This document shows positions 27,835-52,638 of a stretch of DNA of 64,000 nt, one piece after another; positions within the stretch are counted from its first letter, which is position 1; every line of letters starts with the position of its first letter. The notes beneath the pieces were generated by a model. That model saw only the letters and a program-made list of their open reading frames with translations. It searched no databases and was not told where the DNA came from. This stretch comes from Acidovorax sp. 107 (lineage in GTDB: Bacteria > Pseudomonadota > Gammaproteobacteria > Burkholderiales > Burkholderiaceae_C), in assembly GCF_003058055.1 (NCBI RefSeq), contig NZ_QBTZ01000002.1, forward strand, positions 62,001-126,000. Direction: 5' to 3'. A program made the translations under genes and the position numbers.

Positions 27835-28259
27835 GACAGACCGCTTCTTGCACCATGCTGCGGGGGCGCAACCATTGAACGGCTCTGCCGGTCGATCTCG
27901 GTAAGGCGGGCCGTCGGGATGGCAGCCGCAGCCGTGCGCACTTGCGGCCTGGAGGGGCCGGATTTTGGGGTGCGACCATAAGCTCTGAGCTTCAGGGTAT
28001 CGGTCGGACTGGCAGTGAATTTTCTCAAGGTTTGTCCCGTGTTGGCCGTGTTGGGCAGGCGGCTGGCCTGCCTTGTGCCCTGCCGTTCTGCAACGGCATG
28101 CGCCATGCCTTGCTCACAGGCATTAATCTAACGGTAGTTAGATTGATATCAACTAGAAAAAACCCTATGCCGGTGCCGACGACTCCGGTTGTGAACGCGA
28201 GCGGCAACTTCTGCCCAAGCTCGCTTCCGAATGGAAGCGGGTGCTTCAGCGTCGCTCGG
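27835..28259 (-). promoter_or_regulatory. 425-base intergenic region: promoter region of the livF operon
   Basis: No gene is seen here. On the minus strand a possible promoter, TTGATA then 16 bases then TAGATT, lies at about 28150-28123 and overlaps the palindrome listed separately. A perfect hairpin (7-bp arms CGCTTCC/GGAAGCG, loop of 4) at 28222-28239 lies just beyond the ETF-QO stop, but no T run follows it. The remainder shows nothing recognisable. Confidence 0.5.
28125..28144. promoter_or_regulatory. Palindromic operator, probable TetR site (site 1)
   Basis: A perfect inverted repeat AATCTAAC-GGTA-GTTAGATT lies between the putative -35 and -10 of the livF operon promoter. Its right half recurs before four other transcription units in this window, including the TetR gene itself. 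It is the best-conserved copy and serves as the reference for the others. Confidence 0.65.
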
Positions 28260-29945
28260 CTACATTCCCGCGTAGTTCGGCCCGCCGCCGCCTTCGGGTG
28301 TGACCCAGACGATGTTTTGGGTCGGGTCCTTGATGTCGCAGGTCTTGCAGTGCACGCAGTTCTGTGCGTTGATCTGCAGCCGGTCGCTGTGGTCCTCGTC
28401 CTTCACGAACTCGTACACGCCGGCTGGACAGTAGCGGCTCTCGGGGCCGGCGTATTTCGCCAGGTTGATCTGCACTGGCACGCCGGCGTCCTTGAGCGTC
28501 AGGTGCGCGGGCTGGTTTTCTTCGTGGTTGGCGTTGCTGACGAACACGCTGGAGAGTCGGTCGAAGGTGAGTCTGCCGTCGGGCTTGGGGTAGCTGATCT
28601 GCGGCATCTCGGCGGCTGGGCGCAGGGTGGTGTGGTCGGCCTGTGTGCGGTGAATCGTCCAGGGCGGACGCTGGATGCCGAGCCTGGGCAGCAGCCACTG
28701 CTCAATTCCGGTCATCAGCGCACCCACGGTGTTGCCTTTCTTGAACCACTGCTTGAAGTTGCGCGACTGGTCGAGTTCGGTGTGCAGCCAGCTGTTTTCG
28801 AACGCAGCCGGATAGGCGCTGAGTTCGTCGCTGCTGCGTCCGGCGGCCAGGGCTTCAAACGCGGCTTCGGCGGCCAGCATGCCGCTTTTGATGGCGGCGT
28901 GGCTGCCCTTGATGCGGCTGGCGTTCAGGTAGCCTGCATCGCAGCCCACCAGCGCGCCGCCGGGGAAGATGGTCTTGGGCAGGGAGAGCAGGCCGCCGGC
29001 CGCGATTACGCGCGCGCCGTAGCCGATGCGTTTGCCGCCCTCGATGTGCTTGCGGATGGCCGGGTGGGCCTTCCAGCGCTGCATTTCCTCAAAGGGGCTG
29101 AGCCAAGGGTTTTTGTAATCGAGCCCGGTGACGAAGCCCAGCGTGACCTTGTTGCCTTCCAAGTGATAGAGAAAGCCGCCGCCGTAGGTCTGGCTGTCCA
29201 TCGGCCAGCCGGCCGTGTGCACCACCCGACCGGGTTGGGCGCGGGCCGGGTCAATCTCCCACAGTTCCTTGATGCCAATGGCATGGCTTTGCGGATCGCG
29301 GCCTTCGTCGAGCTTGTATTTGGCGATGAGCTGCTTGCCCAGATGGCCGCGCGCGCCTTCGGCAAATATGGTGTACTTGGCGTGCAACGCCATGCCGAGC
29401 TGAAAGCCGTCGTGCGGCTGGCCGTCCTTGCCAATGCCAAGGTTGCCGGTGGCCACGCCCTTGACCGAGCCGTTCTCGTTGTAGAGCACCTCGGCGGCGG
29501 TAAAGCCGGGGAAGATCTCCACGCCCAAGCCTTCAGCCTGCTCGCCCAGCCATTGGGTCAAGGCGCCCAGGCTGATGACGTAGTTGCCCTCGTTGTGGAA
29601 GCAGTCGGGCACCAGAAAGTCGGGCGTGCGCCTGGCGCCAGTTTCGCTCAGGAAAAGCACATCGTCACCTGTGACGGGCTGGTTCAACGGGGCGCCAAGT
29701 TCCTTCCAGTTGGGGAAGAGTTCGTGCAGCGCGATCGGATCCATGACGGCGCCGGAGAGAATGTGAGCACCGGGCGTGGAGCCTTTTTCAAGTACCACGA
29801 TGGACACGTCCTGGGCATTTTCTGCGGCGAGCTGCTTGAGGCGGATTGCCGTGGCCAAGCCGCCTGGTCCGGCGCCCACCACCACCACGTCATATTCCAT
29901 CGCTTCGCGGGGGCCGTATTGATCGAGCAGGGAGGTGGGCGTCAT
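28260..29945 (-). CDS. Electron transfer flavoprotein-ubiquinone oxidoreductase
   Basis: A 561-residue ETF-QO starting at 'MTPTSLLDQYG'. It takes electrons from reduced ETF, hence from the many acyl-CoA dehydrogenases here, and passes them to quinone in the inner membrane. The N-terminal FAD fold 'DVVVVGAGPGGLATAIRLKQ' is near residues 17-36. The C-terminal 4Fe-4S cluster uses Cys in 'SRYCPAGVYEF' and 'NCVHCKTCDIKDP'. It lies 57 bases after the MaoC gene and appears to be the last gene of the badH-badI-tetR-maoC group. No ETF genes are in the window. Confidence 0.93.
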   Translation of the reverse strand: MTPTSLLDQYGPREAMEYDVVVVGAGPGGLATAIRLKQLAAENAQDVSIVVLEKGSTPGAHILSGAVMDPIALHELFPNWKELGAPLNQPVTGDDVLFLSETGARRTPDFLVPDCFHNEGNYVISLGALTQWLGEQAEGLGVEIFPGFTAAEVLYNENGSVKGVATGNLGIGKDGQPHDGFQLGMALHAKYTIFAEGARGHLGKQLIAKYKLDEGRDPQSHAIGIKELWEIDPARAQPGRVVHTAGWPMDSQTYGGGFLYHLEGNKVTLGFVTGLDYKNPWLSPFEEMQRWKAHPAIRKHIEGGKRIGYGARVIAAGGLLSLPKTIFPGGALVGCDAGYLNASRIKGSHAAIKSGMLAAEAAFEALAAGRSSDELSAYPAAFENSWLHTELDQSRNFKQWFKKGNTVGALMTGIEQWLLPRLGIQRPPWTIHRTQADHTTLRPAAEMPQISYPKPDGRLTFDRLSSVFVSNANHEENQPAHLTLKDAGVPVQINLAKYAGPESRYCPAGVYEFVKDEDHSDRLQINAQNCVHCKTCDIKDPTQNIVWVTPEGGGGPNYAGM

Positions 29946-30002
29946 GCGGAGAGAACCCGGAAAGTGGGAGGCCCTGGGGCCCAAGTTGGCGAAAGGGGCG
30001 GT

Positions 30003-30512
30003 TCAGTGGCCGTTGTCGGCCGGCAGCGGCGGTGCGGTGCGCGGTGCGCCGTCACGGGTGTAAACCATGACCGTGCGCTTGAACGTGCAGACGATGACGC
30101 CGCCCTGGTTGTAGCCTTCGGTGCGCACCGTCACGACGCCGACGTTGGGACGCGACCGTGACTCACGCTTGTCCAACACCGTGGAACGTGAATAGAGCGT
30201 GTCGCCCTCGAACACCGGATGCGGCAGACGAACTTCGTCCCACCCGAGGTTGGCCATGACGTTTTGCGATACATCACTCACCGTCTGTCCGGTCACGAGG
30301 GCCAGCGTGAGGCAGGAGTTGACGAGAGGGCGGGCGAACTCCGTTTGCGCGGCATAGTGGGCGTCGAAGTGCAGCGGGGCCGTGTTTTGCGTCAACAGCG
30401 TGAAAGAGATATTGTCGTGCTGGGTGATGGTGCGCCCGAGGGCATGCCGATACTCGTCGCCGACCTCGAAGTCTTCATAGAACCGGCCGCGCCAGCCTTC
30501 CTTGACAGTCAT
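30003..30512 (-). CDS. MaoC-family dehydratase/hydratase
   Basis: A 169-residue single hot-dog domain protein. 'TQHDNISFTLLTQNTAPLHF' carries the Asp/Asn and His of the hydratase site near residue 45, as in mesaconyl- and enoyl-CoA hydratases. It begins with a 4-base ATGA overlap with the end of the TetR gene, so regulator and enzyme are co-translated. The substrate is not known; a branched enoyl-CoA would fit the surroundings. Confidence 0.87.
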   Translation of the reverse strand: MTVKEGWRGRFYEDFEVGDEYRHALGRTITQHDNISFTLLTQNTAPLHFDAHYAAQTEFARPLVNSCLTLALVTGQTVSDVSQNVMANLGWDEVRLPHPVFEGDTLYSRSTVLDKRESRSRPNVGVVTVRTEGYNQGGVIVCTFKRTVMVYTRDGAPRTAPPLPADNGH

Positions 30513-31159
30513 TTGTTGCTCCTGCAGTCATGCGTGAGGATTCCATCGAACACGATCGCCGTGATTTGGCGTGAGAAGTCCTGAAAAGAGCCGCGCTGGG
30601 GGTTGTACCATTCGACGGTCCAGTTCAATGCGCCAATCACGAAAAGCCGAATCATGGCCGTGTTGGTGTCTTGGCGCAATTCGTTGCTAGCGAGTGCCGA
30701 CTCGAGCAGCCGATCCCAGTAGTCCGCGTAAGCGCGACGGACAAGCCTGTGGCGATTCTTGGCGCTGGTCGGAATCTGACCATAGATGCGAATGTTGGCC
30801 GACGTAAAGTCGCCATGGTGGAGCAGTCCCCAGAGGTGGCCTTCGATGCCAGCGGCGATCCGGTCACGCCATGACATGTTCTCAGGAAGTGCGTCAATAC
30901 GGGCACGGACAGCGTCTGCGACGATCGTGATTCCCTTGTCTAGGACTTCGCCAAGGATCTGCTCTTTTGATTCGAAGTGGTAATAAATGCTGCCGGCTTT
31001 GACTCCTGCGGCATCGGCAATCTCGCGCAACGTGGTGGCAGCATAGCCACGATGCCTGAACAGTCGTGAGGCTTCGAGCAACACACGCTCGCGCGTTGCT
31101 GGGTCATTTCTGTCATTTTGGCCGGATTTTGCGTCTGTATTTGACTGCATATTGGTCAT
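30509..31159 (-). CDS. TetR-family transcriptional repressor of the island
   Basis: A 216-residue TetR protein. The DNA-binding helix-turn-helix 'TTLREIADAAGVKAGSIYYH' is near residues 41-60, after an N-terminal polar arm, and the C-terminal ligand domain is of the type that binds acyl-CoA-like effectors in several catabolic repressors. The ATG at 31159 stands only two bases after a GTTAGATT half-site and has no ribosome site, so the transcript may be leaderless; an ATG at 31150 is an alternative. The same motif precedes four other units, so this repressor probably governs the island and itself. Confidence 0.9.
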   Translation of the reverse strand: MTNMQSNTDAKSGQNDRNDPATRERVLLEASRLFRHRGYAATTLREIADAAGVKAGSIYYHFESKEQILGEVLDKGITIVADAVRARIDALPENMSWRDRIAAGIEGHLWGLLHHGDFTSANIRIYGQIPTSAKNRHRLVRRAYADYWDRLLESALASNELRQDTNTAMIRLFVIGALNWTVEWYNPQRGSFQDFSRQITAIVFDGILTHDCRSNK

Positions 31160-31169
31160 TAGTTAGATT
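31156..31169. promoter_or_regulatory. Probable TetR half-site at the regulator's own start (site 2)
   Basis: TCATTAGTTAGATT matches the right half of the reference palindrome (GTTAGATT at 31162-31169) with a TA before it; the left half is weak and overlaps the start codon. Binding here would give autoregulation. Confidence 0.5.
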
Positions 31170-31261
31170 CAACATGCAAATCGTATCAGGCTGGGCTATG
31201 CTGGAAGTCGAGACCCCGTGCGTGGGCGCGTCGCATGAGATTATTCAGGGCTTGCATTCGC

Positions 31262-32053
31262 TCACATGTTGCCATCAACCCACTGCCTGAAATCAGGCTT
31301 GCGCTTTTCCAGGAAAGCGTGGACACCTTCTTTAGATTCTGCCGTGTCGTAGTACAGGCTCAGCGCCTGAAGTCCCAGGCTGCCGATGCCGCGAATGTGC
31401 TCTGTGGATGCATTGAACGAGCGTTTGGCGATGGCCAGCGCGGTAGGACTCTTTTCGACAATCTCCTTGCACCAGCGTGCGACTTCGGCGTCGAGCTGGT
31501 CGTGCGGCACGACGGTGTTGCACAGGCCCATGACCAAGGCTTCCTGCGCATTGTAGCGGCGACACATATACCATATCTCGCGTGCTTTCTTTTCGCCCAC
31601 CACATGGCTCAGGTAGGCCGTGCCCCAACCAGGATCGACCGAGCCGACCTTCGGGCCGACCTGACCAAACACCGCTTTGTCCGAAGCGATGGTCATGTCG
31701 CACAAGGTGGCGAGCACGTTGCCACCCCCAATGGCGTAGCCCTGTACGCGGGCGATCACGGGCTTGGGCACGTCACGAATGGCGCTATGAAATTCTTCCA
31801 CCGGGATGCCGATGGTGCCCCGGCCGTCGTACTGACCGGCGTGGGCCGATTGATCGCCGCCGGTGCAGAAAGCACGATCACCGGTGCCCGTGAGCACAAT
31901 GGCGGCGATGCGCTTGTCCCAGCCGGCTTTCATGAAGGCCTGCAGCAGCTCCTCGACGGTCTGGCCGCGAAACGCATTCATTACCTCGGGGCGGTTGATT
32001 GCGATGTAGGCCACCGAGTCGCGCTCTTCGTAGAGGATGTCCTTGAATTCCAT
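31262..32053 (-). CDS. badI: 2-oxocyclohexanecarboxyl-CoA hydrolase BadI (ring opening)
   Basis: A 263-residue crotonase-fold hydrolase that opens the ring of 2-ketocyclohexanecarboxyl-CoA to pimelyl-CoA. It starts at 'MEFKDILYEERDSVAYI' with AAGGAAA 6 bases before ATG 32053. It matches BadI of Rhodopseudomonas palustris along its length, notably 'GDRAFCTGGDQS', 'RDVPKPVIARVQGYAIGGGN', 'VFGQVGPKVGSVDPGWGTAY' and 'EKKAREIWYMCRRY'. The active site is MenB-like rather than hydratase-like. It follows badH-like and precedes tetR on the same strand. A ring-substituted substrate, such as a p-menthane acid, is possible. Confidence 0.93.
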   Translation of the reverse strand: MEFKDILYEERDSVAYIAINRPEVMNAFRGQTVEELLQAFMKAGWDKRIAAIVLTGTGDRAFCTGGDQSAHAGQYDGRGTIGIPVEEFHSAIRDVPKPVIARVQGYAIGGGNVLATLCDMTIASDKAVFGQVGPKVGSVDPGWGTAYLSHVVGEKKAREIWYMCRRYNAQEALVMGLCNTVVPHDQLDAEVARWCKEIVEKSPTALAIAKRSFNASTEHIRGIGSLGLQALSLYYDTAESKEGVHAFLEKRKPDFRQWVDGNM

Positions 32054-32112
32054 GGGTTTTCCTTTTTGTTCGTTGTGTCGATGGCGCATGGCAGCCCACC
32101 ATGCCCCAGCGT

Positions 32113-32910
32113 TTATCCAATCATGCTGTAACCACCAGAAACGGAAAGCACCTGCCCGGTGACATGGCCCGCAACCTTTGCCGAAGACAGGAAGACGACG
32201 GCATTGGCAATGTCCTGTGGCCGCCCCACTTTGCGCAGCGGCAGCGCCTTGGCGACTTTCTCCAGTTGCTCGGGCGTGAACATGCTGCCAGCATCGACCC
32301 ACATGCTGCTGCCGCCTACTTCGTCGGTGGTGCTCGGGATCGTGACGCCGGGGCAGACCACGTTGCAGCGGATGCCGTAACGCCCGTTTTCCTTGGCGAT
32401 GGTTTTCATGAAGCTGTTGATGGCCGCCTTGACGCCGCCATACACCGCCTCGCGCGGTTCGCCCTGACGGCTCGCATCGGAACTGATGGAGACGATGGAG
32501 CCCGCGTTGCGGGGAATCATCAGATCCAGCGCGATTTTGGTGCAGTTGAGAACGCCGAGGTAGTTAATGTTGATGATCTTCTGCCACAGGTCGGGGGTCG
32601 TCTGGGTAAAGAACAGCAACTGGTCCCATCCCACGTTGTTGACGAGCACATCGACGCCGCCGAACTTGTCGGTCGCGGCCTTGAACATGGCCTGCACCTG
32701 GTCGAGCTTGGTGACATCGGTTTTGACGACTTGCGCCGACGCGGCCCCGTTCGCCAGAGCGAATTCCGCCGTCTTTTGCGCCTGCTTGTCGTCGATGTCC
32801 CCGATGGTGATGTGGGCGCCCTCAGCGGCGAAGCCAAGCACGATGGCGCGACCGATGTTCGAGCCGCCACCGGTGACGATGACCGATTTGCCTTTGAGAT
32901 CCAGATCCAT
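32113..32910 (-). CDS. badH: 2-hydroxycyclohexanecarboxyl-CoA dehydrogenase (BadH-like SDR)
   Basis: A 265-residue short-chain dehydrogenase with 'GGGSNIGRAIVLGFAAEG' for NAD(P), 'LVNNVGWDQLLFF' and the catalytic Ser and Tyr/Lys in 'SISSDASRQG' and 'AVYGGVKAAIN'. The ending 'GHVTGQVLSVSGG' is shared with BadH. It would oxidise the 2-hydroxy ring acyl-CoA to the 2-oxo ester cleaved by BadI, the next gene 59 bases downstream. A GAGGAA ribosome site precedes ATG 32910. Identity rests on resemblance and on the BadI neighbour. Confidence 0.85.
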   Translation of the reverse strand: MDLDLKGKSVIVTGGGSNIGRAIVLGFAAEGAHITIGDIDDKQAQKTAEFALANGAASAQVVKTDVTKLDQVQAMFKAATDKFGGVDVLVNNVGWDQLLFFTQTTPDLWQKIININYLGVLNCTKIALDLMIPRNAGSIVSISSDASRQGEPREAVYGGVKAAINSFMKTIAKENGRYGIRCNVVCPGVTIPSTTDEVGGSSMWVDAGSMFTPEQLEKVAKALPLRKVGRPQDIANAVVFLSSAKVAGHVTGQVLSVSGGYSMIG

Positions 32911-32959
32911 ATTGATTCCTCGCGCACTTGGCGCATCATTGATTCCTACACAGCATAAC

Positions 32960-32979
32960 TGCCAAACGATAGTTAGGTT
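32960..32979. promoter_or_regulatory. Probable TetR operator upstream of badH (site 3)
   Basis: CAAACGATAGTTAGGTTTG (32963-32981) is an imperfect inverted repeat (CAAAC and GTTTG arms) aligned on the same GATA-GTTAG core as the reference site. It lies about 50-70 bases upstream of the badH start. Confidence 0.5.
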
Positions 32980-33070
32980 TGACGGTCGAGTTTTCCGGTG
33001 TTTGGCAGGGGCGCAGTCGCGGTAAAGCCGGCCTTGATCTGACCATGCCCCTCCCCAGGCATGGCCGTTG

Positions 33071-34312
33071 CTATTTGCCCTTGGCGAACTCGCCTGATTC
33101 TTTCTTCACGATGTCCTGGATCACATCGTCATACGCCGAGAACCAGTCAGTCTGGGGTACCCAGTTGGCGCCATCCCACAGGTCGATACGGGTCTTGCCA
33201 CCGCCACCATGGTCCTTGGAGGTCACCGTCACAGGGGCGATCAGGCCTTCGGCGTCAAAGTTTTTCAGGTTTTCCAGGCCGCGCTTCATTTTTTCAGGGG
33301 TGATGGGCCAGCCGTGTTGTTTGACAGCCTGGCGAGCCCCCTCGAAAACGCTGGCATAGATGGCCAGACCGGTGTTGTAGTAGATGTCGTTGAGATGCTT
33401 GCGGTCACCGCTGCCCTTGCCCTTCTCGTACAGGTCCTTGATGATCTGTTGCATCAGCGGGTGGCTCTGTCCACCTGACACGTTGGTGCCTCGTTTGACG
33501 CCTTTCGCGCTTTCCAGACCGATGTTGGCGAGGTCAACTTCGTTGAACCAGTTGACCGCGATGTACTTGTCCATCGGAATGCCGTTGCGCTTCATCTCGC
33601 GCGCGGCGACAACGTGCATGTTGGACAGATTCCAGCTGATGACCCAATCGGGGTTGATGCGGCGGATCTGGGTCCAGGCCGCGGCTTGGTCATTGCCGGG
33701 CATCGGGTTGGGAATGAGGTGCAGATCAAATCCCTCCTTGGCGGCGAGCGTCTTCAGCACGCCAATCGGCTCCTGACCGAACGGATAGTCTGGGTAGATG
33801 AACGCGATCTTCACGCCTTTGAGGCTGCCGTTGGCCTTGGTCTTGATGTAGTGGATGTTGTTGGCCATCTGGCCCCAATAAGTCGGCCCAATGGGGAAAA
33901 TCCACTTGAACACATCGCCATCGACGGCATCGCCACGGCCCACGAAGGATTGCACCATCACCTGGCCATCCGCCATGGCGCGAGGCAGAACGGCGCGGGC
34001 AACCGGCGTGGACAGGAAATCAAAGGAAATGGCGCCCTCGCGCTTCATTTTTTCGTAGCACTCGATGCCGCGCTGCGGTTCGTTGCCGTGGTCTTGAACC
34101 ATGATCTCGATGGGGTGACCTTCGATGCCGCCCTTCTGGTTCAATATCTTGGCATAGTCGTTCGCAGCCTGAGAGATTTGCGGGGTGACAAAGCCGTAGG
34201 ACTTGCTCAGGTCATAGCACAGCGCGAATTTGATGGGTTGGGCTAGCGCGGACGTCAGGCCGGCAAACGCCAATCCCAAGCCGGCCACGACAGAAATAAA
34301 CTTGGATCGCAT
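33071..34312 (-). CDS. ABC transporter periplasmic binding protein (system 2)
   Basis: A 413-residue type I binding protein with a signal peptide ending 'AFAGLTSALA' near residue 24. The mature protein starts 'QPIKFALCYDLSKSYGFVTP', the pattern of the LivK-like receptors linked to aromatic and alicyclic acid uptake. It differs clearly from the first binding protein. AGGAAA precedes ATG 34312. It is the last gene of the second Liv operon, 114 bases after livF, and 160 bases before badH. Confidence 0.9.
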   Translation of the reverse strand: MRSKFISVVAGLGLAFAGLTSALAQPIKFALCYDLSKSYGFVTPQISQAANDYAKILNQKGGIEGHPIEIMVQDHGNEPQRGIECYEKMKREGAISFDFLSTPVARAVLPRAMADGQVMVQSFVGRGDAVDGDVFKWIFPIGPTYWGQMANNIHYIKTKANGSLKGVKIAFIYPDYPFGQEPIGVLKTLAAKEGFDLHLIPNPMPGNDQAAAWTQIRRINPDWVISWNLSNMHVVAAREMKRNGIPMDKYIAVNWFNEVDLANIGLESAKGVKRGTNVSGGQSHPLMQQIIKDLYEKGKGSGDRKHLNDIYYNTGLAIYASVFEGARQAVKQHGWPITPEKMKRGLENLKNFDAEGLIAPVTVTSKDHGGGGKTRIDLWDGANWVPQTDWFSAYDDVIQDIVKKESGEFAKGK

Positions 34313-34426
34313 GTCTGTTTTCCTACCATGAATCGTACGGGTTGAAAAAGCCCGGGGTGCACGCCGTACCGTACCGCCTAGGACTGGTTACAAACCGAGT
34401 GTCGAGATTGCTGGGGCTCCGGGGGG

Positions 34427-35281
34427 TCAAGTCAGCCAGCGTTTACGCCGGCGATAGTGTTTGATGTCATGGAAGCTGCGTCCTTCGGCGCCGCCAAGAT
34501 AGAACTCCTGGATATCCGGGTTCTTCTTCATCGCCTCGGCGCTGTCATGCATTACCACGCGTCCGTTCTCGATCAGGTAGCCGTGCGAGACCACCTCCAG
34601 GGCGGCAATGGCGTTTTGCTCGACAAGCAGGACGGACAGACCTTCTTCCTTGTTGATGCGCCGGACGATGTCAAAAATCTCGGCCACGAGAAAAGGGGCC
34701 AGTCCTAGGCTGGGCTCATCGAGCATCAGCAGTTTGGGTTGCGTCATCAGGGCGCGCCCAATGGCCAGCATCTGCTGCTCGCCACCTGACAGGTAGCCGG
34801 ATTGGGCGGTGCGCCGCTGGTGCAGGCGCGGGAAGTAGGTGTAGACCATGTCCTTGTTGCGCAGCATGTCCTGGCGGTTGCCACGCACCGCCGACGCAGC
34901 TGCAAGGTTTTCGTCCGGCGTCAGGTGCTCGAACACGCGCCGCCCCTCCAGCACATGAACGATACCGAGTTTGACGCGCTCCTGCGGTGCCAGCGCATCA
35001 ATGTTCTGACCCAGAAAACGGACTTCTCCGCGGGTGATCTGGCCGCGCTCGGGGCGAAGCAACCCGCTGATGGATTTGAGCGTCGTGCTTTTGCCGGCGC
35101 CGTTGGCGCCCAGCAATGCGACCATGCCGCCTTGCGGCACATCGATCGACACGCCCTTGATGGCGAGCGAGACGTGGTCGTAGATGACCTCGACGTTGTT
35201 GAGTGACAGAACCCGAGCGGGGTCCGAGACCTGGTTTTCCATACGCGGAGGGAGGGCTGTTGATTGATCGGTCGCGTGCAT
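34427..35281 (-). CDS. livF: ABC transporter ATPase LivF (system 2)
   Basis: A 284-residue ATPase, with about 25 extra N-terminal residues 'MHATDQSTALPPRMENQ' that may not be part of the true start. Walker A is 'LGANGAGKSTTLKSI', the signature 'YLSGGEQQMLAIGRAL' and Walker B 'LLMLDEPSLGLAP'. It shares the tail 'DIKHYRRRKRWLT' with the first LivF. It follows livM by 14 bases. Confidence 0.92.
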   Translation of the reverse strand: MHATDQSTALPPRMENQVSDPARVLSLNNVEVIYDHVSLAIKGVSIDVPQGGMVALLGANGAGKSTTLKSISGLLRPERGQITRGEVRFLGQNIDALAPQERVKLGIVHVLEGRRVFEHLTPDENLAAASAVRGNRQDMLRNKDMVYTYFPRLHQRRTAQSGYLSGGEQQMLAIGRALMTQPKLLMLDEPSLGLAPFLVAEIFDIVRRINKEEGLSVLLVEQNAIAALEVVSHGYLIENGRVVMHDSAEAMKKNPDIQEFYLGGAEGRSFHDIKHYRRRKRWLT

Positions 35282-35295
35282 GGGGTGGTCCTTAC

Positions 35296-36369: not shown

Positions 36370-36373
36370 GGGC

Positions 36374-37261: not shown

Positions 37262-37264
37262 GGT

Positions 37265-40046: not shown

Positions 40047-40146
40047 TGAAGGTGCCTATGACATTGAAGGGGTGGACCATGTGCTCGATGGCAACTTGCC
40101 AGCCCAATTGCTGCTTCACATAAAAAATCTAATCCATAATACGTCG

Positions 40147-40160
40147 AACGTTAGTTAGGG
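40147..40160. promoter_or_regulatory. Probable TetR operator upstream of the second Liv operon (site 4)
   Basis: AACGTTAGTTAGGG carries the AAC-GTTA-GTTAG core in the intergenic region between the CoA transferase stop (40197) and the livG start (40046), about 100 bases before livG. Confidence 0.5.
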
Positions 40161-40196
40161 GCCACGGGGGTTTCCCTAGTTCTTTCCAGCGGGCGT

Positions 40197-41411: not shown

Positions 41412-41420
41412 GGTGGCTTG

Positions 41421-42587: not shown

Positions 42588-42599
42588 GGAGGCCGCTCC

Positions 42600-43403: not shown

Positions 43404-43446
43404 CGGAAGGCTCCTTGAGAAAAAAGAAAAAAAAGGCCATGGACGG

Positions 43447-44304: not shown

Positions 44305-44318
44305 GGCGTCGCTTCGCT

Positions 44319-45239: not shown

Positions 45240-45267
45240 GAAATGACTCCTGTTTGTTGATGAAAGA

Positions 45268-46425
45268 TCAGACGGTGGCGGCCGTGCCCAGCAGGGCCGT
45301 CACCTGGCTTGAAAGAACGCCGCCGTTGCCATGGCACAGCGCGACCTCGGCGCCGCGCACCTGCCGCGCCCCGGCCTCGGCGCGCAGTTGCTGCACCGCT
45401 TCGATCAGCAGGAACATGCCGTACATGCCGGGGTGGCAGCACGACAGACCGCCACCATTGGTGTTGACCGGCAGCGCGCCGCCCGGCGCGATGCGCCCGT
45501 TGCGCACAAAAGCGCCGCCTTCGCCCTTGGCGCAAAAGCCCAGGTCTTCGAGGAACAGCAGCGTGTTGATGGTGAAGGCGTCGTACAGCTCCAGCACGTC
45601 CACGTCCTTCGGTGCCAGCCCGGCCATGGCGAAGGCGCGTGGCCCGGACTCGGCGGCGGCGGTCACCGTCAGGTCGGGCATGGAGCCGATCTGGCGATGC
45701 CAAGTGGCGGCTGCCGCGCCCAGCACGTAGACCGGTGGCTTGGGAAAGTCGCGCGCCCGCTCGCTGCGCACCAGCACCAGGGCGCCGCCGCCATCGGTGA
45801 CCAGGCAGCAATCGAGCACCGACAGCGGGTCGCTCACCAAGCGCGCGGCCAGCACCTGCTCGATGCTGAGCGGTTCGCGCGCGTGCGCCAGCGGATTGAG
45901 CCGCGCCCATTGACGCGCCGCCACCGCGATGTGCGCCAGATCTTCGCGCGTGCTGCCGTACTGGTGCATGTGGCGCGCGGCGGCCAGGGCGTAGCTGGAG
46001 ATCGGGTAGCGCGGCTCGTAAGGCGCCTCGTACAAAGGGGTCTCGGCCATCGACTTGAGCTTGCCGAAGCCCGAACCCTGGTTGCTGCCATAGCAAATGA
46101 GCGCCACCTCGCACTGGCCGGTGTGCAGGGCCATGGCGGCGGTGAGCAGGTGGCCCACGTAAGACGAGCCGCCGACCATGGTGGCTTCACAGAACTTGGG
46201 CTTGAGCCCCAAGTATTCGGCCACCGACAGGCCGGCCAGGAAGTAGTAGGACGAGCCGGTGAACAGGCCATCGACATCGGACAGCTTCAGACCGGCATCG
46301 GCCAGCGCGCCGTGCACCGCTTCGCCCAGGATTTCGAGCGCGCTGCGGCCGGGCGCCATGGGCACGCCGCCCAGGCTGGCGCCGACGATGGCGGCGGCAC
46401 CGCGCAGAGGGGAAGCAGTGCTCAT
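45268..46425 (-). CDS. Thiolase-fold protein without the usual nucleophilic Cys, second copy
   Basis: A 385-residue thiolase/SCP2-family protein. The nucleophile loop reads 'EATMVGGSSYVGHLLTAAMA', with no Cys at the expected place, while 'NTNGGGLSCCHPGMYG' keeps the Asn/His loop. The gene overlaps its DUF35 partner by 4 bases. Its relation to the 7814 protein is distant. Cys-less members with a DUF35 partner (Ltp2-like) cleave 3-hydroxyacyl-CoAs by retro-aldol chemistry, so an aldolase role is the leading inference. The precise reaction is unknown. Confidence 0.85.
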   Translation of the reverse strand: MSTASPLRGAAAIVGASLGGVPMAPGRSALEILGEAVHGALADAGLKLSDVDGLFTGSSYYFLAGLSVAEYLGLKPKFCEATMVGGSSYVGHLLTAAMALHTGQCEVALICYGSNQGSGFGKLKSMAETPLYEAPYEPRYPISSYALAAARHMHQYGSTREDLAHIAVAARQWARLNPLAHAREPLSIEQVLAARLVSDPLSVLDCCLVTDGGGALVLVRSERARDFPKPPVYVLGAAAATWHRQIGSMPDLTVTAAAESGPRAFAMAGLAPKDVDVLELYDAFTINTLLFLEDLGFCAKGEGGAFVRNGRIAPGGALPVNTNGGGLSCCHPGMYGMFLLIEAVQQLRAEAGARQVRGAEVALCHGNGGVLSSQVTALLGTAATV

Positions 46426-46832
46426 GGCGTCGTGGTCTCCTGTGGCGTGAAGACCAGCAGCTTGCCCTTGGCCGGGTCGTCGATCACGCGCGCCCGCACC
46501 CGCATGCCGATGCGCACCTGCTCAGGCGGCACGCCATCGATGCGCGACATCAGCCGCGGCCCCTCGGCCAGATCCACCAGCGCGACGTTGTAGTCGCCGC
46601 CGGACTCGGGTTTTCTGCGCACCGTGGTGCTGGAATAGACCTGACCGGCCCCGCTGGGTTCAACCCAGTCGAGCTGGGCCGAGCCGCAATGCGGACACAG
46701 CGCGCGCGGATAAAACACGTGCTGGCCGCAGGCGCTGCAATGCTGGATCTCGAAGCGGCCCCGCGCCAGCGCCTGCGCGAACAGGGCGTCCGGCCCCGGG
46801 CCTTCAAAAACGGGATGGCGCGCGCTCTTCAT
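46422..46832 (-). CDS. Zn-ribbon/OB-fold DUF35 protein, second copy
   Basis: A 136-residue DUF35 protein with zinc ribbon 'CSACGQHVFYPRALCPHCGS' near residues 33-52, then an OB-fold. It overlaps the acyl-CoA dehydrogenase before it and the thiolase-fold gene after it by 4 bases each, so all are translated together. It probably docks the acyl-CoA onto the thiolase-fold partner, as the 9013 protein would. Confidence 0.9.
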   Translation of the reverse strand: MKSARHPVFEGPGPDALFAQALARGRFEIQHCSACGQHVFYPRALCPHCGSAQLDWVEPSGAGQVYSSTTVRRKPESGGDYNVALVDLAEGPRLMSRIDGVPPEQVRIGMRVRARVIDDPAKGKLLVFTPQETTTP

Positions 46833-47995
46833 GACGGCAGCTTCAGCACGCTGGCGGCCAGGATGTTGCGCTGCACCTCGTTGCTGCCGCCGTAGATGGT
46901 GGCCGGGCGCGCGTTGTAGAAGGTGGTCAACGCATCGGTCTTGCCGCCGGGCAGGGCAATGTCGCCGGGCGTGCCGCCGCTGGCGCCGACGACGTCAACC
47001 AACAGGTCGGCCAGGCGCGAATAGGTTTCGGTGGCGAACAGCTTGAGCATGGAGACATCGGGTCCCAGGGTTTCGCCGCGCTTGACCTGTTCGATGAAGC
47101 GGCCGTAGAGCGTGCCCAGATCGGCCACGTCCAGCGCCAGTTTGGTGTAGCGGTCCACAAAGCCGCCGTCTTCGAACAGACCGAGCCGCCGTGCCGCTTC
47201 CTGCACGCGCGCCAGCGCGTACTGGCTTTGCTTGGGGCTGCCCAGGAAGATGCGCTCGAAGCCGAGCAGCGCCTTGGCGATAGTCCAGCCCTTGTTCAAC
47301 TCGCCGACGATGTTGGCGCGCGGCACGCGCACATTTTCCAGGAAGACTTCGCAGAAGTCCTCGTTGCCCGCGATGTTGCGGATCGGCCGCACCGTGATGC
47401 CCGGCGTTTTCATGTCGACCAGCAGGAAGCTGATGCCCTCCTGCTTCTTGGCCGATTTGTCGGTGCGCACCAGCAGGAAGATGTGGGTGGCGTCCTGCGC
47501 CAGCGTGGTCCAGGTCTTCTGCCCGTTGACCACGAAGTCGTCGCCGTCTACCACCGCTTCGGTGCGCAGGCTGGCTAGGTCGGAGCCCGAATTGGGTTCC
47601 GAATAACCCTGGCACCAGATGTGCTCGCCAGCAATGATTCTGGGCAGGTAGTGGGCGCGCTGCGCGTCGTTGCCGTGGTGAATCAGCAGCGGGCCGACCA
47701 TGGTGATGCCCATGTCGGGGGCGCGCGCGACGCCCCAGCGCTCCTGCTCTTCAATGAAAATGATGAGTTTTTCGGGGCTCAGTCCCATGCCGCCGTACTG
47801 CGTGGGCCAGCTCGGCGCAATCCAGCCATTTTTCGAGAGCGTCAGGTACCATGGCCCGATTTCGGCCCAGCGCAGACGGCGCTGCGGGTAGCGCCATTCG
47901 CCCGGATACTGGGCTTCAAAAAATTCGCGCACGGTGGCGCGGAAGCGGGCATCGTCGAGTGCGTTCCAGTCGGTGGTGGTGGCGGAGAGATTCAT
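46829..47995 (-). CDS. Acyl-CoA dehydrogenase, alpha-type subunit of a second pair
   Basis: A 388-residue dehydrogenase with flavin loop 'GYSEPNSGSDLASLR' near residue 132. As in the first pair, Gly replaces the MCAD Glu ('ATIYGGSNEVQRNI') and 'LLGFERIFLG' gives Glu at the alternative site. It lacks the RxxFG flavin segment, which its neighbour carries. The next gene upstream overlaps by 4 bases, supporting an alpha2beta2 enzyme of the steroid/branched side-chain FadE type. Confidence 0.9.
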   Translation of the reverse strand: MNLSATTTDWNALDDARFRATVREFFEAQYPGEWRYPQRRLRWAEIGPWYLTLSKNGWIAPSWPTQYGGMGLSPEKLIIFIEEQERWGVARAPDMGITMVGPLLIHHGNDAQRAHYLPRIIAGEHIWCQGYSEPNSGSDLASLRTEAVVDGDDFVVNGQKTWTTLAQDATHIFLLVRTDKSAKKQEGISFLLVDMKTPGITVRPIRNIAGNEDFCEVFLENVRVPRANIVGELNKGWTIAKALLGFERIFLGSPKQSQYALARVQEAARRLGLFEDGGFVDRYTKLALDVADLGTLYGRFIEQVKRGETLGPDVSMLKLFATETYSRLADLLVDVVGASGGTPGDIALPGGKTDALTTFYNARPATIYGGSNEVQRNILAASVLKLPS

Positions 47996-49158
47996 GCGTG
48001 CTCCTGCGCGGTGGTGTGGCGGGTGAGGTCGGCGTAGCGGCGGCGTTGCTGGGTGCCATTGCCCAGCCAGGCGGCGAGCACCAGGACGCGCTGCAGATAC
48101 AGACCCAGGTCGTATTCGTCGGTGACACCAATGGCGCCGTGCAGTTGCACCGCTTCGCGCGCCACCTGCAGCCCGGCGTCCGACGCGCGCGACTTGACGC
48201 GGCTGGCCATGACCGAGCGCCCTGTGGCATCGCTGTCCGGGGCGTCGAGCAGGGCCACGGCTTGGGCCACCACGCTGGCGGTCAACTCCTGCTGGATCAG
48301 CAGATCGACGGCGCGGTGCTGCAGCGACTGGAAGCTGCCGATCGGCTTGCCGAACTGGACCCGCGTACGCAGGTAGTCCTGCGTCATGGACAGCATGCTG
48401 CGCACCAGGGCCAGCAGTTCGACGCTGGTCATGACCAGGGTTTCATCGTAGGCGCGGGTGAGGGCGGCGACGGCCGTCTGCCCTTCGGCCAGCAGGTAGC
48501 TGGCGGGCAGGCGAATGTGGTTGAGATCGATCTGGGCTGCGTAGCTGCCGTCTGCCAGCGGCTGGCTGCTCACGGTGAGGCCTGCCGTGTCGGCTGGCAC
48601 CCACACCAGGGCCAGGCCTTGCGGCCCGCTGGCGCTGACAATATGGCCGTCGGCACCGGCGCCGGGGCGCACATGGCGCTTGCCGCCATTAAGCAGCAGG
48701 GCGTCGGCCTGGCGCTCCAACCGGGTCGCGGCGTGGTCGAGCCGGTCTTTCGCGCCGGTGACATCTTCCTGCCAGGCCACGGCGGGCAACGTTCGTCCCC
48801 CGGCAAGTTCACCGAGCAGCCGCGCCGACAACTCGGTGCTGCCGGCATGCGCCAGCAGCCGACCGGCGAAGACCAGCACCGGTACCACCGGTTCTGGCGC
48901 GACCTGGGTGGCCAGCACGGCCACCACCTCGGCCATCTCGGCGAAGCCCTGTTGGTAGCCGCCCAGTTGTTCAGGCACGAGCAGCCCGGTCCAACCCTGC
49001 TCTGCCAGGGCGTTCCAGAAGCGGCGGTCATGGCCCGGCGTCTGCTGGCGCAGGGCGCGGGCACGGTTGAGGGGCGATTCCTTGGTGGCGAAACTCAGCG
49101 CGCTCTCGCGCAGCATGGTCAGCTGTTCAGCGCGTTCGCTGTCGGGGGTGGCGGTCAT
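47992..49158 (-). CDS. Acyl-CoA dehydrogenase, beta-type subunit of the second pair
   Basis: A 388-residue acyl-CoA dehydrogenase relative. It has 'RTRVQFGKPIGSFQSLQHRA' (flavin contact) and 'HGAIGVTDEYDLGLYLQR', the same C-terminal pattern as the 1534 subunit, but no 'TEP..GSD' loop and no catalytic 'EGT'. It should complement the gene 46829-47995. It lies 84 bases after another dehydrogenase gene; that short gap shows no clear feature. Confidence 0.88.
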   Translation of the reverse strand: MTATPDSERAEQLTMLRESALSFATKESPLNRARALRQQTPGHDRRFWNALAEQGWTGLLVPEQLGGYQQGFAEMAEVVAVLATQVAPEPVVPVLVFAGRLLAHAGSTELSARLLGELAGGRTLPAVAWQEDVTGAKDRLDHAATRLERQADALLLNGGKRHVRPGAGADGHIVSASGPQGLALVWVPADTAGLTVSSQPLADGSYAAQIDLNHIRLPASYLLAEGQTAVAALTRAYDETLVMTSVELLALVRSMLSMTQDYLRTRVQFGKPIGSFQSLQHRAVDLLIQQELTASVVAQAVALLDAPDSDATGRSVMASRVKSRASDAGLQVAREAVQLHGAIGVTDEYDLGLYLQRVLVLAAWLGNGTQQRRRYADLTRHTTAQEHA

Positions 49159-49242
49159 GATGGGGTGGGTTGCGTTGTCGGTTGAACGGTATCGACGAGG
49201 CCGCTGCCGGCCCCGGCGGGAGGAAAATCGGCCATGGGCGTG

Positions 49243-50409
49243 TCAATAGGACTTGGGCAGGCCCAGCACCTTCTCGGCGATGAAGCACAGGATGAGTTGC
49301 GGGCTGATCGGCGCGATGCGCGGAATCATCATCTCGCGCAGGTAACGCTCGACGTGGTATTCCCTGGCGTAGCCATAGCCGCCGAGCGTGGCCATGGCGC
49401 GCTGGCAGGCGTTGAAACCGGCTTCGGCCGCCATGTATTTGGCGGCATTGGCGTCGGCGCCGCAGGGTAGGCCCTTGTCGTATTTCCAGGCCGCGCGCAT
49501 CGCCATCATCTCGGCGGCCTCGAGTTCCATCCACGATTGCGCCAGCGGATGCTGGATCGACTGATTCTGCCCGATGGGCCGGTCGAACACTTCCCTTTCC
49601 TTGGCGTACTTGACGGCCACTTCCAGCGCCTTGCGGCCCAGGCCGACCGCTTCGCCCGCAATCAGCACCCGTTCGGGGTTCATGCCATGCAGGATGTATT
49701 CGAAGCCGCGGCCTTCCTCCCCGATGCGGTCCTCCAGCGGCACCCGCAGACCGTCGATGAAGAGTTCATTCGAGTCGACCGCCTTGCGCCCCATCTTTTC
49801 GATTTCGCGCACCTCGACAAAACGGCGGTCCAGGTCGGTGTAGAACAGGCTCAGGCCGAGAGTCGGATGCTTGCAGTCCTCGATCGGCGTGGTGCGCGCC
49901 AGGATCAGCATCTTCTCAGCCACCTGGGCGGTCGAGATCCAGACCTTCTGGCCGGACAGCACATAGTGGCCGCCGACCCGTTCGGCACGGGTTCTCAAGC
50001 GGGTGGTGTTCAGGCCGGTGTTGGGTTCGGTCACGGCGAAGCAGGCTTTTTCCTTGCCCTGGATCAGCGGCGGCAGCATGCGGCGTTTCTGCTCGTCGGT
50101 GCCGAACGCGGCGACCGGCTGCAGGCCGAAAATGTTCATGTGCACCGCCGATGCGCCAGACAGCCCGGCGCCCGACTGTGAAATGGTCTGCATCATCACG
50201 GTCGCTTCACTGATGCCCAGTCCGCCACCACCATACTCCTGTGGCAGGCAAACGCCGAGCCAGCCGCCGTCAGCCAGGGCGCGGTGCAGCTCATGTGGAA
50301 AGCCGCCCACCCGATCACGTTCGAGCCAGTAGCTGTCGTCGAAGCGGGCGCAGATTTTGCTGATCGCTTCGCGAATTGATTCGTGTTCTGGGTTGGTGGT
50401 GAAATCCAT
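49243..50409 (-). CDS. Acyl-CoA dehydrogenase with isovaleryl-type catalytic Glu
   Basis: A 388-residue dehydrogenase, start 'MDFTTNPEHESIREAI' at ATG 50409. 'FAVTEPNTGLNTTRLR' is the flavin loop, 'EREVFDRPIGQNQSIQH' the FAD segment, and 'HGMNPERVL' the likely catalytic Glu; the MCAD position is 'RIAPISPQL'. The ending 'EKVLGLPKSY' matches the 41421 enzyme. It lies 19 bases after the FadH-like gene. Confidence 0.9.
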   Translation of the reverse strand: MDFTTNPEHESIREAISKICARFDDSYWLERDRVGGFPHELHRALADGGWLGVCLPQEYGGGGLGISEATVMMQTISQSGAGLSGASAVHMNIFGLQPVAAFGTDEQKRRMLPPLIQGKEKACFAVTEPNTGLNTTRLRTRAERVGGHYVLSGQKVWISTAQVAEKMLILARTTPIEDCKHPTLGLSLFYTDLDRRFVEVREIEKMGRKAVDSNELFIDGLRVPLEDRIGEEGRGFEYILHGMNPERVLIAGEAVGLGRKALEVAVKYAKEREVFDRPIGQNQSIQHPLAQSWMELEAAEMMAMRAAWKYDKGLPCGADANAAKYMAAEAGFNACQRAMATLGGYGYAREYHVERYLREMMIPRIAPISPQLILCFIAEKVLGLPKSY

Positions 50410-50428
50410 GGGGGGTGTTCCAGTGGGC

Positions 50429-52480
50429 TCAGATCGCCAGACCGAGACGCGTGCCCTGGTCAATGGCGCGCAAGGCGTCCAGTTCGGCGGCCAGCTCGGC
50501 GCCGCCGATGACCTCCGGCGCGAGGCCCAACTCGCGCAATTCGGTGGCCAGCGTGTTCTCGCTGTCCTGGCCGGCGCAAATCACGATGGTGTCTACATCG
50601 AGCACGTGTGGCTCGCCATTGACTCGCAGGTGCAGGCCGGCGTCGTCGATGCGCTCGTAGCTGCAGCCCGACAGCATGCGCAGGTCGCGTCGCGCCAGTT
50701 CGGCCTTGAGCGCCCAGCCGGTGGTCATGCCCAGGTTGCGCCCGGGTTTTTCCGGCTTGCGCTGCAGCAGGGTGACTTCGCGTGCCGCCTTGACCGGCTG
50801 CATCGGTTTCAGGCCGCCAGCGGCTGAGGGCGAGGTGTCGACACCCCATTCAGCGTGAAACCGGTCGACCGCCTGCGGCGTGCTGGCGGCGCCATCAGCA
50901 TGTTCTTCGTGCAGCAGGAACGCCGCCACGTCGAAACCGATGCCCCCGGCGCCGATCACCGCGACCCGGTGGCCCGCCTGCACCCGGCCCGCCAGCAGGT
51001 CGGCATAGCTCACCACTTTCGGGTGAGCTATGCCTTGGATCTGCGGCAGGCGCGGGCGCACGCCGGTGGCAATCACGATGTGGTCGTAGTGGCCGCCAGC
51101 GAGCGATTGGGCCTCAGCCCGGGTGTCAAGCTTGATCATGACGTCATGCCGCGCCACGCCTTGCTTGAAGTAGCGCAACAGTTCGTTGAACTCCTGCTTG
51201 CCCGGCACGGCCCGGGCCAGGTTCAATTGGCCGCCGATCTCGGGCCCGGCTTCAAACAGGGTGACCGCGTGGCCGCGTTCGGCGGCGGTCAGCGCGCAGG
51301 CCAGCCCGGCTGCGCCGGCGCCGATCACCGCCACCTTGCGCGGCACGGCCCGTGGCGGCAGTAGCGAGAACTCCAGCTCGCGGCCGGCGCGGGGATTGAC
51401 CAGGCAGGTCGCGGGCCGGTCGGCGAAGATGTAGTCGAGACAGGCCTGGTTGCAGGCGATGCAGGTGTTGATTTCATCGGCGCGGCCATGCGCCGCCTTG
51501 TGCACGAAGTCGGCGTCGGCCAAGAAAGGGCGCGCCATCGACACCATGTCGGCGTCGCCACTGGCCAGGATTTCTTCGGCCAGATCGGGCGTGTTGATCC
51601 GGTTGGAGACGATGACCGGGATCGACACCGCTTTTTTGACGCGGGCCGCGGCGAAGCGCCAGGCGGCACGTGGCACGACATAGGCAATGGTCGGGATGCG
51701 TGCTTCGTGCCAGCCGATACCGGTGTTGAGGATATCGGCGCCAGCGGCCTGTACCGCCTGGGCGAGTTGGTCGATTTCATCGGCCGGTGCGCCGCCTTCG
51801 ACCAGATCGAGCGCCGAGACCCGGAACATCAGCAGAAACTCTGGACCCACCCGGGCGCGCGTGCGACGAACGATCTCCACCGGCAGGCGATGGCGATTTT
51901 CTAGGCTGCCGCCAAATTCGTCGCTGCGCTGGTTGGTGCGCGTGACGGTGAACTGGTTGAGCAGGTAGCCCTCCGAGCCCATGATCTCCACGCCATCGAA
52001 GCCGGCGCGCTGGGCGAGTTCGGCGCAGCGCACATAGTCCTCGATCGTTTGCCAGACTTCGGCCGTGCTCAGGGCGCGCGGCGCGCGCGGGTTGATGGGC
52101 GAGGGAATCTCGGAGGCGCCGACGGGCTGGGCAATTTTGGCGTAGCGGCCCGTGTGCAGGATTTGCAGAATGATCTTGCCGCCTTCGGCATGCACCGCCC
52201 GAGGGATCGGTTGGAGCGCATCGGCCTGCTCCGCCGTGACGAGCAGGGGGCCGGTTTCGTCCAGCAGGCCATCCGGGTTGGGGGCATAGCCGCCCGTGAC
52301 GATTAGGCCCGCGCCACCGCGCGCCCGCTCGGCATAGAACAGGGACAACCGGTCGATGGAGTGGTCCAGCGACTCCAGGCGCGTGTGCATCGAGCCCATC
52401 AGCGCCCGGTTGCCAAGGGTGTGTGCGCCGACCTTCAGGGGGGACAGCAGCGTCGGAAAGGAAGCGGGGGCATTGGACAT
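50429..52480 (-). CDS. fadH: 2,4-dienoyl-CoA reductase FadH type (FMN/FAD/4Fe-4S)
   Basis: A 683-residue flavin oxidoreductase. An N-terminal TIM barrel carries the FMN site; 'EGYLLNQFTVTRTNQR' and 'TGIGWHEARIPTI' hold the Tyr and His that protonate the dienoyl-CoA. The 4Fe-4S Cys are in 'CIACNQACLDYIF' near residue 335. The NAD(P)H/FAD domain starts at 'KVAVIGAGAAGLACALTAAE'. It would reduce conjugated double bonds, such as those left by terpenoid or ring cleavage. It is the first gene of the minus-strand block and is divergent from 52639; GGAGA precedes ATG 52480. Confidence 0.9.
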   Translation of the reverse strand: MSNAPASFPTLLSPLKVGAHTLGNRALMGSMHTRLESLDHSIDRLSLFYAERARGGAGLIVTGGYAPNPDGLLDETGPLLVTAEQADALQPIPRAVHAEGGKIILQILHTGRYAKIAQPVGASEIPSPINPRAPRALSTAEVWQTIEDYVRCAELAQRAGFDGVEIMGSEGYLLNQFTVTRTNQRSDEFGGSLENRHRLPVEIVRRTRARVGPEFLLMFRVSALDLVEGGAPADEIDQLAQAVQAAGADILNTGIGWHEARIPTIAYVVPRAAWRFAAARVKKAVSIPVIVSNRINTPDLAEEILASGDADMVSMARPFLADADFVHKAAHGRADEINTCIACNQACLDYIFADRPATCLVNPRAGRELEFSLLPPRAVPRKVAVIGAGAAGLACALTAAERGHAVTLFEAGPEIGGQLNLARAVPGKQEFNELLRYFKQGVARHDVMIKLDTRAEAQSLAGGHYDHIVIATGVRPRLPQIQGIAHPKVVSYADLLAGRVQAGHRVAVIGAGGIGFDVAAFLLHEEHADGAASTPQAVDRFHAEWGVDTSPSAAGGLKPMQPVKAAREVTLLQRKPEKPGRNLGMTTGWALKAELARRDLRMLSGCSYERIDDAGLHLRVNGEPHVLDVDTIVICAGQDSENTLATELRELGLAPEVIGGAELAAELDALRAIDQGTRLGLAI

Positions 52481-52498
52481 GGCAGATAGTCTCCAAAT

Positions 52499-52518
52499 AA
52501 TCTAACTAACACCTGTTC
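52499..52518. promoter_or_regulatory. Probable TetR operator in the divergent promoter (site 5)
   Basis: AATCTAACTAAC on the plus strand (GTTAGTTAGATT on the minus) shares the conserved half-site and TA spacer end of the reference palindrome; the other half is degraded. It lies 19 bases before the FadH start codon and about 120 bases before the plus-strand dehydrogenase. Confidence 0.55.
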
Positions 52519-52638
52519 GATGAGTTATTATACGGTGTCGGCCAGCCATGCCATGGAAGAACGTCGCAAATTCTTTGTCTTGATCGACGGTGTGGCGCAG
52601 GCGGCGATTTCGGCAACAGTCAGCCAGGAGATTTCCCC

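Follow-up and report, generated by a model that had tools for sequence, protein, structure and literature searches.

Which protein reads the short sequence that recurs before the operon heads of an alicyclic-acid catabolic island in Acidovorax sp. 107? The island lies in a 64,000-nucleotide stretch (the window; positions count from its first base unless prefixed with C2), which comprises bases 62001–126000 of the 190,183-base contig C2 in a 5.11 Mb genome whose other contig, C1, has 4.92 Mb. C2 is probably a plasmid, and the island plasmid-borne, because a protein with a Rep3 initiator domain is encoded on C2, together with several transposase-like genes. An earlier note on this DNA had proposed, from five copies of a TAGTTAG core, that a TetR regulon covers most of the island's transcription units. 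Our analysis supports that proposal: the sequence, better written as the palindrome CNAAC-N4-GTTNG with 8 to 10 fixed bases, is very probably the operator of the island's own TetR protein (30509–31150), which would repress an alicyclic-acid regulon. Full operators precede six operon heads (a coenzyme A (CoA) ligase gene, livF1, badH, livG2, an old yellow enzyme (OYE) gene and aliB), the motif is conserved at orthologous heads, and it is linked to the TetR gene among related genomes.

Distribution of the motif in the window and the genome

All five TAGTTAG cores are present where they had been reported, four on the plus strand (28135, 31160, 32970, 40152) and one on the minus strand (52502), and the window holds no others. 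For the full motif the list changes: CNAACN4GTTNG occurs at 5261, 28128, 32963, 40145 and 52506, so four of the reported sites are full copies, the one at 31156–31169 is merely a half-site, and there is an extra copy, CAAACGGTTGTTTG, at 5261–5274. This added site lies in coding sequence, and the statement that all copies are intergenic does not extend to it. The "perfect palindrome" at 28125–28144 has two matching 8-base arms around an asymmetric 4-base centre (16/20 bases). At the level of the contig there are also more copies on C2 outside the window, at C2:57163, C2:164115 and C2:178806.

For scoring we used a symmetric matrix built from 62 unique (82 total) orthologous sites, none of them from the window's genome, collected with a pattern that was itself derived from the window. 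Its consensus is CTATCTAACGATCGTTAGATAG, with T as the second base of the half-site in roughly two thirds. A scan with this matrix gives seven sites of at least 13 bits on C2: 28128 (29.5 bits), 5261 (25.8), 32963 (25.5), 52506 (20.9) and 40145 (13.3) within the window, and C2:164115 (19.9) and C2:178806 (19.0) outside it. In 400 kb of C1, evenly sampled, no site reaches 13 bits, the top score being 12.1. Three weaker candidates at positions 54444 (coding), 170393 (6.1 bits) and 45547 (10.8 bits) of C2 are not claimed as sites.

A motif with 8 to 10 fixed bases only could suggest chance or non-regulatory repeats, a reading to which we give practically no credence, given the matrix scan, the position-specific conservation described below, the shuffles and the restriction of the motif to C2. 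CNAACN4GTTAG or CTAACN4GTTNG finds four sites in the window versus a mean of 0.075 and a maximum of 1 in 200 dinucleotide shuffles. Genome-wide, CNAACN4GTTAG has six distinct places, all on C2 (57163, 90128, 94963, 102145, 114506 and 164115); C2 is 3.7% of the genome, and the probability of all six falling there by chance is 0.037^6 = 2.7e-9. The pattern read backwards occurs at 19 and 16 places in the genome. With at most one mismatch to CTAACN4GTTAG, the nine places listed comprise six on C2 and three on C1.

Conservation of the motif and its link to the TetR gene

The start of the island tetR gene, previously put at 31159, has been corrected to the ATG at 31150, three codons later, where several orthologues also begin (e.g., P0006 and P0010). 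Matches to PF00440 and PF17932 above cutoff and a nine-helix AlphaFold2 model place the protein in the TetR family, and the model has fold similarity to FadR and AibR. Against NF053516, the model of Vibrio PsrA, it scores 40.1 of 300 bits, and against the KstR model NF033703 29 of 280 bits, both below cutoff.

Loci of relatives were obtained by scanning one-genome-per-species contigs with a TetR alignment, from which the best 80 of the matches are listed. In the close set of 40 loci (L047–L086; TetR identity about 67% or more, including the Polaromonas JS666 plasmid), CNAACN4GTTNG occurs 93 times and at least once per locus, while other spacings from 0 to 12 give 0 to 33 matches. The count of 33 belongs to spacing 8 and is probably caused by half-sites that are often doubled (TAACTAAC). 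Between −330 and +25 relative to the gene start, four operon heads have the motif in 62/63 readable orthologous promoters: livF1 10/11, badH 18/18 (one locus unreadable), livG2 16/16 (a further three truncated where the locus stops) and aliB 18/18. Upstream of 13 operon-internal genes it is found in 1/223, and this sole case (L072, g090) is a divergent promoter there. Sought in 20 other genomes with the TetR gene, aliB gave 19 matches, and the best match carries a site scoring at least 13 bits in 17 of the 19, L173 (143 upstream bases covered) and L175 being without one. The second-copy aliB loci L177, L178 and L180 have no site either; L176 and L179 score 9.3 and 16.8 bits.

The pattern extends to 38 more distant loci (L090–L127; TetR about 41–55% identical), which mostly belong to Bradyrhizobium and Roseobacter relatives, and a few to beta- and gammaproteobacteria; 37 of them have at least one motif, the exception (L120) being a locus of 3 kb. 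The motif is thereby seen next to TetR proteins of no more than 42–51% identity, most of them from Alphaproteobacteria. Spacing 4 gives 80 matches in L100–L127 versus 0–15 for other spacings. The motif often stands 10–28 base pairs (bp) before tetR in the Roseobacter relatives, and before aliB/OYE, CoA ligase and g079/g090 homologues in the other distant loci.

Of 250 genomes in the family, 5 have a TetR orthologue (E 1e-60). CTAACN4GTTAG occurs in 4/5 genomes with the TetR gene (7 sites) versus 25/245 without it (27 sites), an association with a Fisher p of 0.0007, or 0.0048 excluding the window's own genome. Homologues of aliB with at least 80% identity are found in exactly the same 5 genomes, each with a site above 20 bits; there are two TetR-less aliB homologues (64–65%), and the one whose start is covered has no site.

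The same loci bear on whether some other island regulator binds the motif, for instance the protein encoded at 9987–12125, which has a MalT-like tetratricopeptide-repeat region. Its gene does lie within the island, and the Polaromonas JS666 island (L047) contains an 88% match, but the other 39 close loci show none in the sequence covered (mostly 10-kb flanks), whereas the motif is in all 40. Moreover, a 14-bp inverted repeat beside tetR genes in different classes is the expected target of a TetR dimer, and we regard a MalT-like reader as quite improbable.

A stronger competitor is a second TetR gene on the same contig (TetR2, C2:164146–164748), whose product is also of the TetR_C_24 type and 32% identical to the island TetR. 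The full motif at C2:164115 (window +102115) stands in the divergent promoter between TetR2 and an acyl-CoA dehydrogenase gene, within a 35-base block that is identical in the same-genus genome G012, the whole compared stretch being 91% identical. The two paralogues might compete for the sites or divide them, which we consider doubtful: their recognition helices differ (KAGSIYYHF in the island TetR vs TSGSLFYYF in TetR2), a search of 60 relatives gives no TetR2 match at E 1e-40 in 54 of them, and G012, in which the best match to the island TetR (E 2e-26, 33%) is the TetR2 orthologue, is 75% complete, so that the absence of an island TetR there is uncertain. In 28 loci of less related TetRs (30–39% identity; L019–L046, 92.6 kb) there are 2 gap-4 matches; L033, from this set, overlaps L133, the locus of a TetR2 orthologue, where a site is present. 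TetR2 may read the same motif, or the island TetR may control the TetR2 operon too, and the assignment of sites would not be exclusive.

Several observations weigh against the island TetR as the reader. Besides the conservation of the motif at the TetR2 promoter in G012, where a close match to the island TetR is missing, the 25 family genomes mentioned above still contain CTAACN4GTTAG without the gene, and the locus L087 (TetR 58%) has no exact copy in 20 kb. The fold match is one that the TetR superfamily shares. The loci are mutually related and were selected with the recognition-helix words [IV]KAGSIYY or HF[EA]SKE, so their counts are not independent; because the loci were found via these words, we do not use helix invariance as evidence, and what the loci show is that similar helices accompany a common operator, which does not make the helix itself invariant. 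At the tetR promoter itself, 19/39 readable close loci have the full motif and 20/39 have no full operator. Most of the close orthologues compared have a half-operator, CTAACTAAYG, with a decayed second half at the tetR start codon, even the half-site being absent in L064 and L065, and in the remaining close loci, from L066 on, a full site mostly stands 28–112 bp before tetR. In the more distant part of the close loci, tetR and aliB share a single site.

Layout of the proposed operators and the site within the ligase gene

Features of the window discussed in the text. Enzyme names rest on Pfam/TIGR family matches; operon extents are judged from gene direction alone.
Feature	Position	Strand	Description
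AMP-binding acyl-CoA ligase	3318..5285	-	Pfam AMP-binding 1.2e-78; contains operator A
Operator A	5258..5277	-	CAAACAACCGTTTG on gene strand; codons 4–9 of CoA ligase; exact motif, 25.8 bits
Operator B	28125..28144	-	AATCTAAC-N4-GTTAGATT; 291 bp before livF of transport system 1 (gene start 27834)
tetR	30509..31150	-	213 amino acids; TetR_N + TetR_C_24; Pfam PF00440 4.6e-18, PF17932 8.5e-14
Degenerate operator C, tetR start	31153..31170	-	half-site GTTAGATT at 31162–31169, second half lost; 5.2 bits
badI, 2-ketocyclohexanecarboxyl-CoA hydrolase	31262..32053	-	TIGR03210 468.0 bits, cutoff 467.6
badH-like short-chain dehydrogenase/reductase	32113..32910	-	heads badH-badI-tetR-maoC-etfqo; TIGR03206 212.8 bits, below cutoff 431.2
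Operator D	32960..32979	-	CAAACGATAGTTAG; 53 bp before badH
Operator E	40142..40161	-	CGAACGTTAGTTAG; before livG of transport system 2
OYE/2,4-dienoyl-CoA-reductase-like	50429..52480	-	Pfam Oxidored_FMN 4.4e-78
Operator F	52499..52522	+	CTAACTAACACCTGTTCG + extra overlapping half-site; divergent OYE/aliB promoter
aliB-like cyclohexanecarboxyl-CoA dehydrogenase	52639..53805	+	TIGR03207 538 bits, below cutoff 575

The operators lie close to putative promoter elements, which were judged by eye except at livF1. There, a promoter scan finds the consensus match TTGATA-16-TAGATT (2 such promoters vs 1.1 in shuffles); the earlier note had read the same two boxes, between which it placed the site, but the palindrome overlaps the −10 box. 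TTGAC stands upstream of the livF1 site in 5/9 orthologous promoters compared and TTGAA in a sixth, but neither in L050, L057 or L062. The palindrome is followed, after 3–5 bases, by a TATAAT- or TAAAAT-like box at badH and livG2 and, after about 6 bases, by a box resembling TATTAT or TATCAT at aliB. This layout, with sites over or beside −10-like boxes, fits steric repression. The half-site at aliB is often doubled (CTAACTAAC; window 52499–52519 and L066–L086), possibly giving the dimer a second register.

Operator A, missing from the earlier list, is conserved: of 25 orthologue loci, all but L205, a fragment that lacks the N-terminus, were examined, and 21 of these 24 have a site of at least 16.5 bits, 19 of the 21 with the exact pattern (not L194 and L199), while L201, L202 and L204 have no site. 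The codons beneath it are nearly frozen. Lys5 is AAA in 22/22 coding sequences, while AAG prevails in the gene (AAA 93/340 over 16 Lys columns); it is the sole fully codon-identical column of the 16, and over all columns 52/528 are codon-identical. Pro7 is CCG in 20/21 ligase sequences, and Gln6 is CAA in 19/20, frozen too though the operator core needs no such constraint; the residue changes Gln to Arg and Pro to Leu touch the free N4 of the site. Pro12, just outside the operator, is kept as a residue with four codons in use, so that translation does start upstream. Given the near-frozen codons across orthologues, we set aside the idea of mere conserved coding sequence, and operator A offers a clear example of protein coding and regulation constraining the same bases. 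In most orthologues TGGAC-like and TAGGAT-like words precede the ligase ATG, the −10-like word ending about 6 bases before it, so the ligase mRNA is probably leaderless, with operator A just downstream of the transcript start.

We infer that a dimer of the island TetR would bind each palindrome over or beside the −10 region and jointly repress two ATP-binding cassette transporters, three CoA ligases, ring opening (badH/badI) and β-oxidation (OYE and acyl-CoA dehydrogenases). By co-direction, acyl-CoA carboxylase and 3-hydroxy-3-methylglutaryl-CoA (HMG-CoA)-lyase-like genes behind aliB would also be repressed; aliB heads a row of genes in the same direction, among them two sets for acyl-CoA carboxylase and the HMG-CoA-lyase-like genes. 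The OYE gene similarly heads a co-directed row down to a CoA-transferase, and behind operator E lies the row livG2-CoA ligase-livH-livM-ATPase-binding protein. The position of tetR in the badH row and the weak operator at its own start make autoregulation probable. The repressor would most likely be released by a CoA thioester of the pathway, judging from the fold similarity to FadR/AibR and the pathway context, and perhaps the ligase carrying operator A makes this inducer.

Relation to known regulators and neighbouring genes

We found no published description of this operator among the open-licence papers searched. The operator of KstR2 of Mycobacterium is CAAG-N2-CTTG. AtuR/RdmA of Pseudomonas is described with a CAAG-type palindromic operator, AGCAAGCGCTTGG (PMC9973270), and both types differ from CNAACN4GTTNG here. 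A close likeness is to PsrA of Pseudomonas, a TetR regulator of fatty-acid catabolism with the operator C/GAAAC-N2-4-GTTTG/C (PMC13104628): a TetR over a β-oxidation regulon, a near-identical half-site, a spacer of 4 and a site near its own start codon. The differences are the T at position 2 of most half-sites, the TetR_C_24 protein and the alicyclic-acid genes; the PsrA pattern is fitted by operator A (CAAACN4GTTTG) and by D in one half, while B, E and F do not fit. BkaR (GTTANTN4ANTAAC; PMC3920632) and KstR (TnnAACnnGTTnnA; PMC1995591) of Mycobacterium likewise belong to the TetR family, repress acyl-CoA catabolism and have palindromes made up of similar words, but BkaR has the half-sites in opposite order and KstR a 2-bp spacer. 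MbdR of Azoarcus CIB shares with the proposed system the TetR family, a CoA-thioester inducer and operators over promoter elements, but its operator (ATACN10GTAT) is unrelated and it serves the 3-methylbenzoate pathway (PMC4424350).

By function the counterpart is BadR of R. palustris and Aromatoleum CIB, a MarR repressor with the operator CAAN4TTG, and PMC9795900 assigns badR to Gram-negative bad-ali clusters and a TetR-like gene to Gram-positive ones. BadR controls homologues of badH, badI and aliB and has a pathway CoA thioester as inducer. The enzyme families here are the same; the regulator's protein family and the operator differ, and this Gram-negative island has a TetR. A BadR-type system acting on the island is very hard to credit, since CAAN4TTG is found in operator A only and is absent from B, D, E and F (the operators, not the whole promoters, were scanned), and no MarR gene is among the proteins scanned, a genome search for MarR not having been made. 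With the island TetR as regulator, we lean slightly towards a hitherto undescribed regulon whose range runs from Burkholderiales to Bradyrhizobium and Roseobacter relatives: a TetR would replace BadR in alicyclic-acid catabolism, and in Burkholderiales the operator of the CoA ligase would sit within its first codons, downstream of a leaderless start, the same DNA being protein code and switch. The statement in PMC9795900 that BadR, a MarR repressor, serves Gram-negative bad-ali clusters would then need qualification. For an alicyclic (naphthenic-acid or cyclic-terpenoid-like) degradation island, the results also supply an operator, a regulator and a list of targets that can be tested, and regulator and sites could act as a sensor for alicyclic acyl-CoAs.

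With badI at its equivalog cutoff and badH and aliB below theirs, the family scores may point to a related alicyclic substrate, perhaps a substituted one. It may be plain or substituted cyclohexanecarboxylate, or a perillate-like terpenoid, for which the mrc genes of Castellaniella provide a comparison, as described in PMC4109377. The Polaromonas JS666 plasmid island (L047; NC_007950 27144–67773) has extra genes for a cytochrome P450, a ferredoxin, a pyrroloquinoline-quinone (PQQ)-dependent dehydrogenase and an aldehyde dehydrogenase, possibly an upstream oxidation branch, with the motif CTAACTTTAGTTAG between the PQQ-dehydrogenase and aldehyde dehydrogenase genes.

Outside the window, the TetR2/acyl-CoA-dehydrogenase promoter, the g144 promoter and the gene start at C2:57163 are candidate members of the regulon. 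The motif at C2:178806, AGAACGGTTGTTAGTTAG, is 81 bp before g144. That at C2:57163 is an exact CNAACN4GTTAG of 7.3 bits which ends 11 bases before an ATG, and the frame that begins there resembles a metallo-hydrolase by eye, without a family search. Finally, window 13153–15472 and C2:21528–23847 hold gene pairs of equal lengths (508 and 267 amino acids) and equal coding scores, which are probably two copies of one insertion element.
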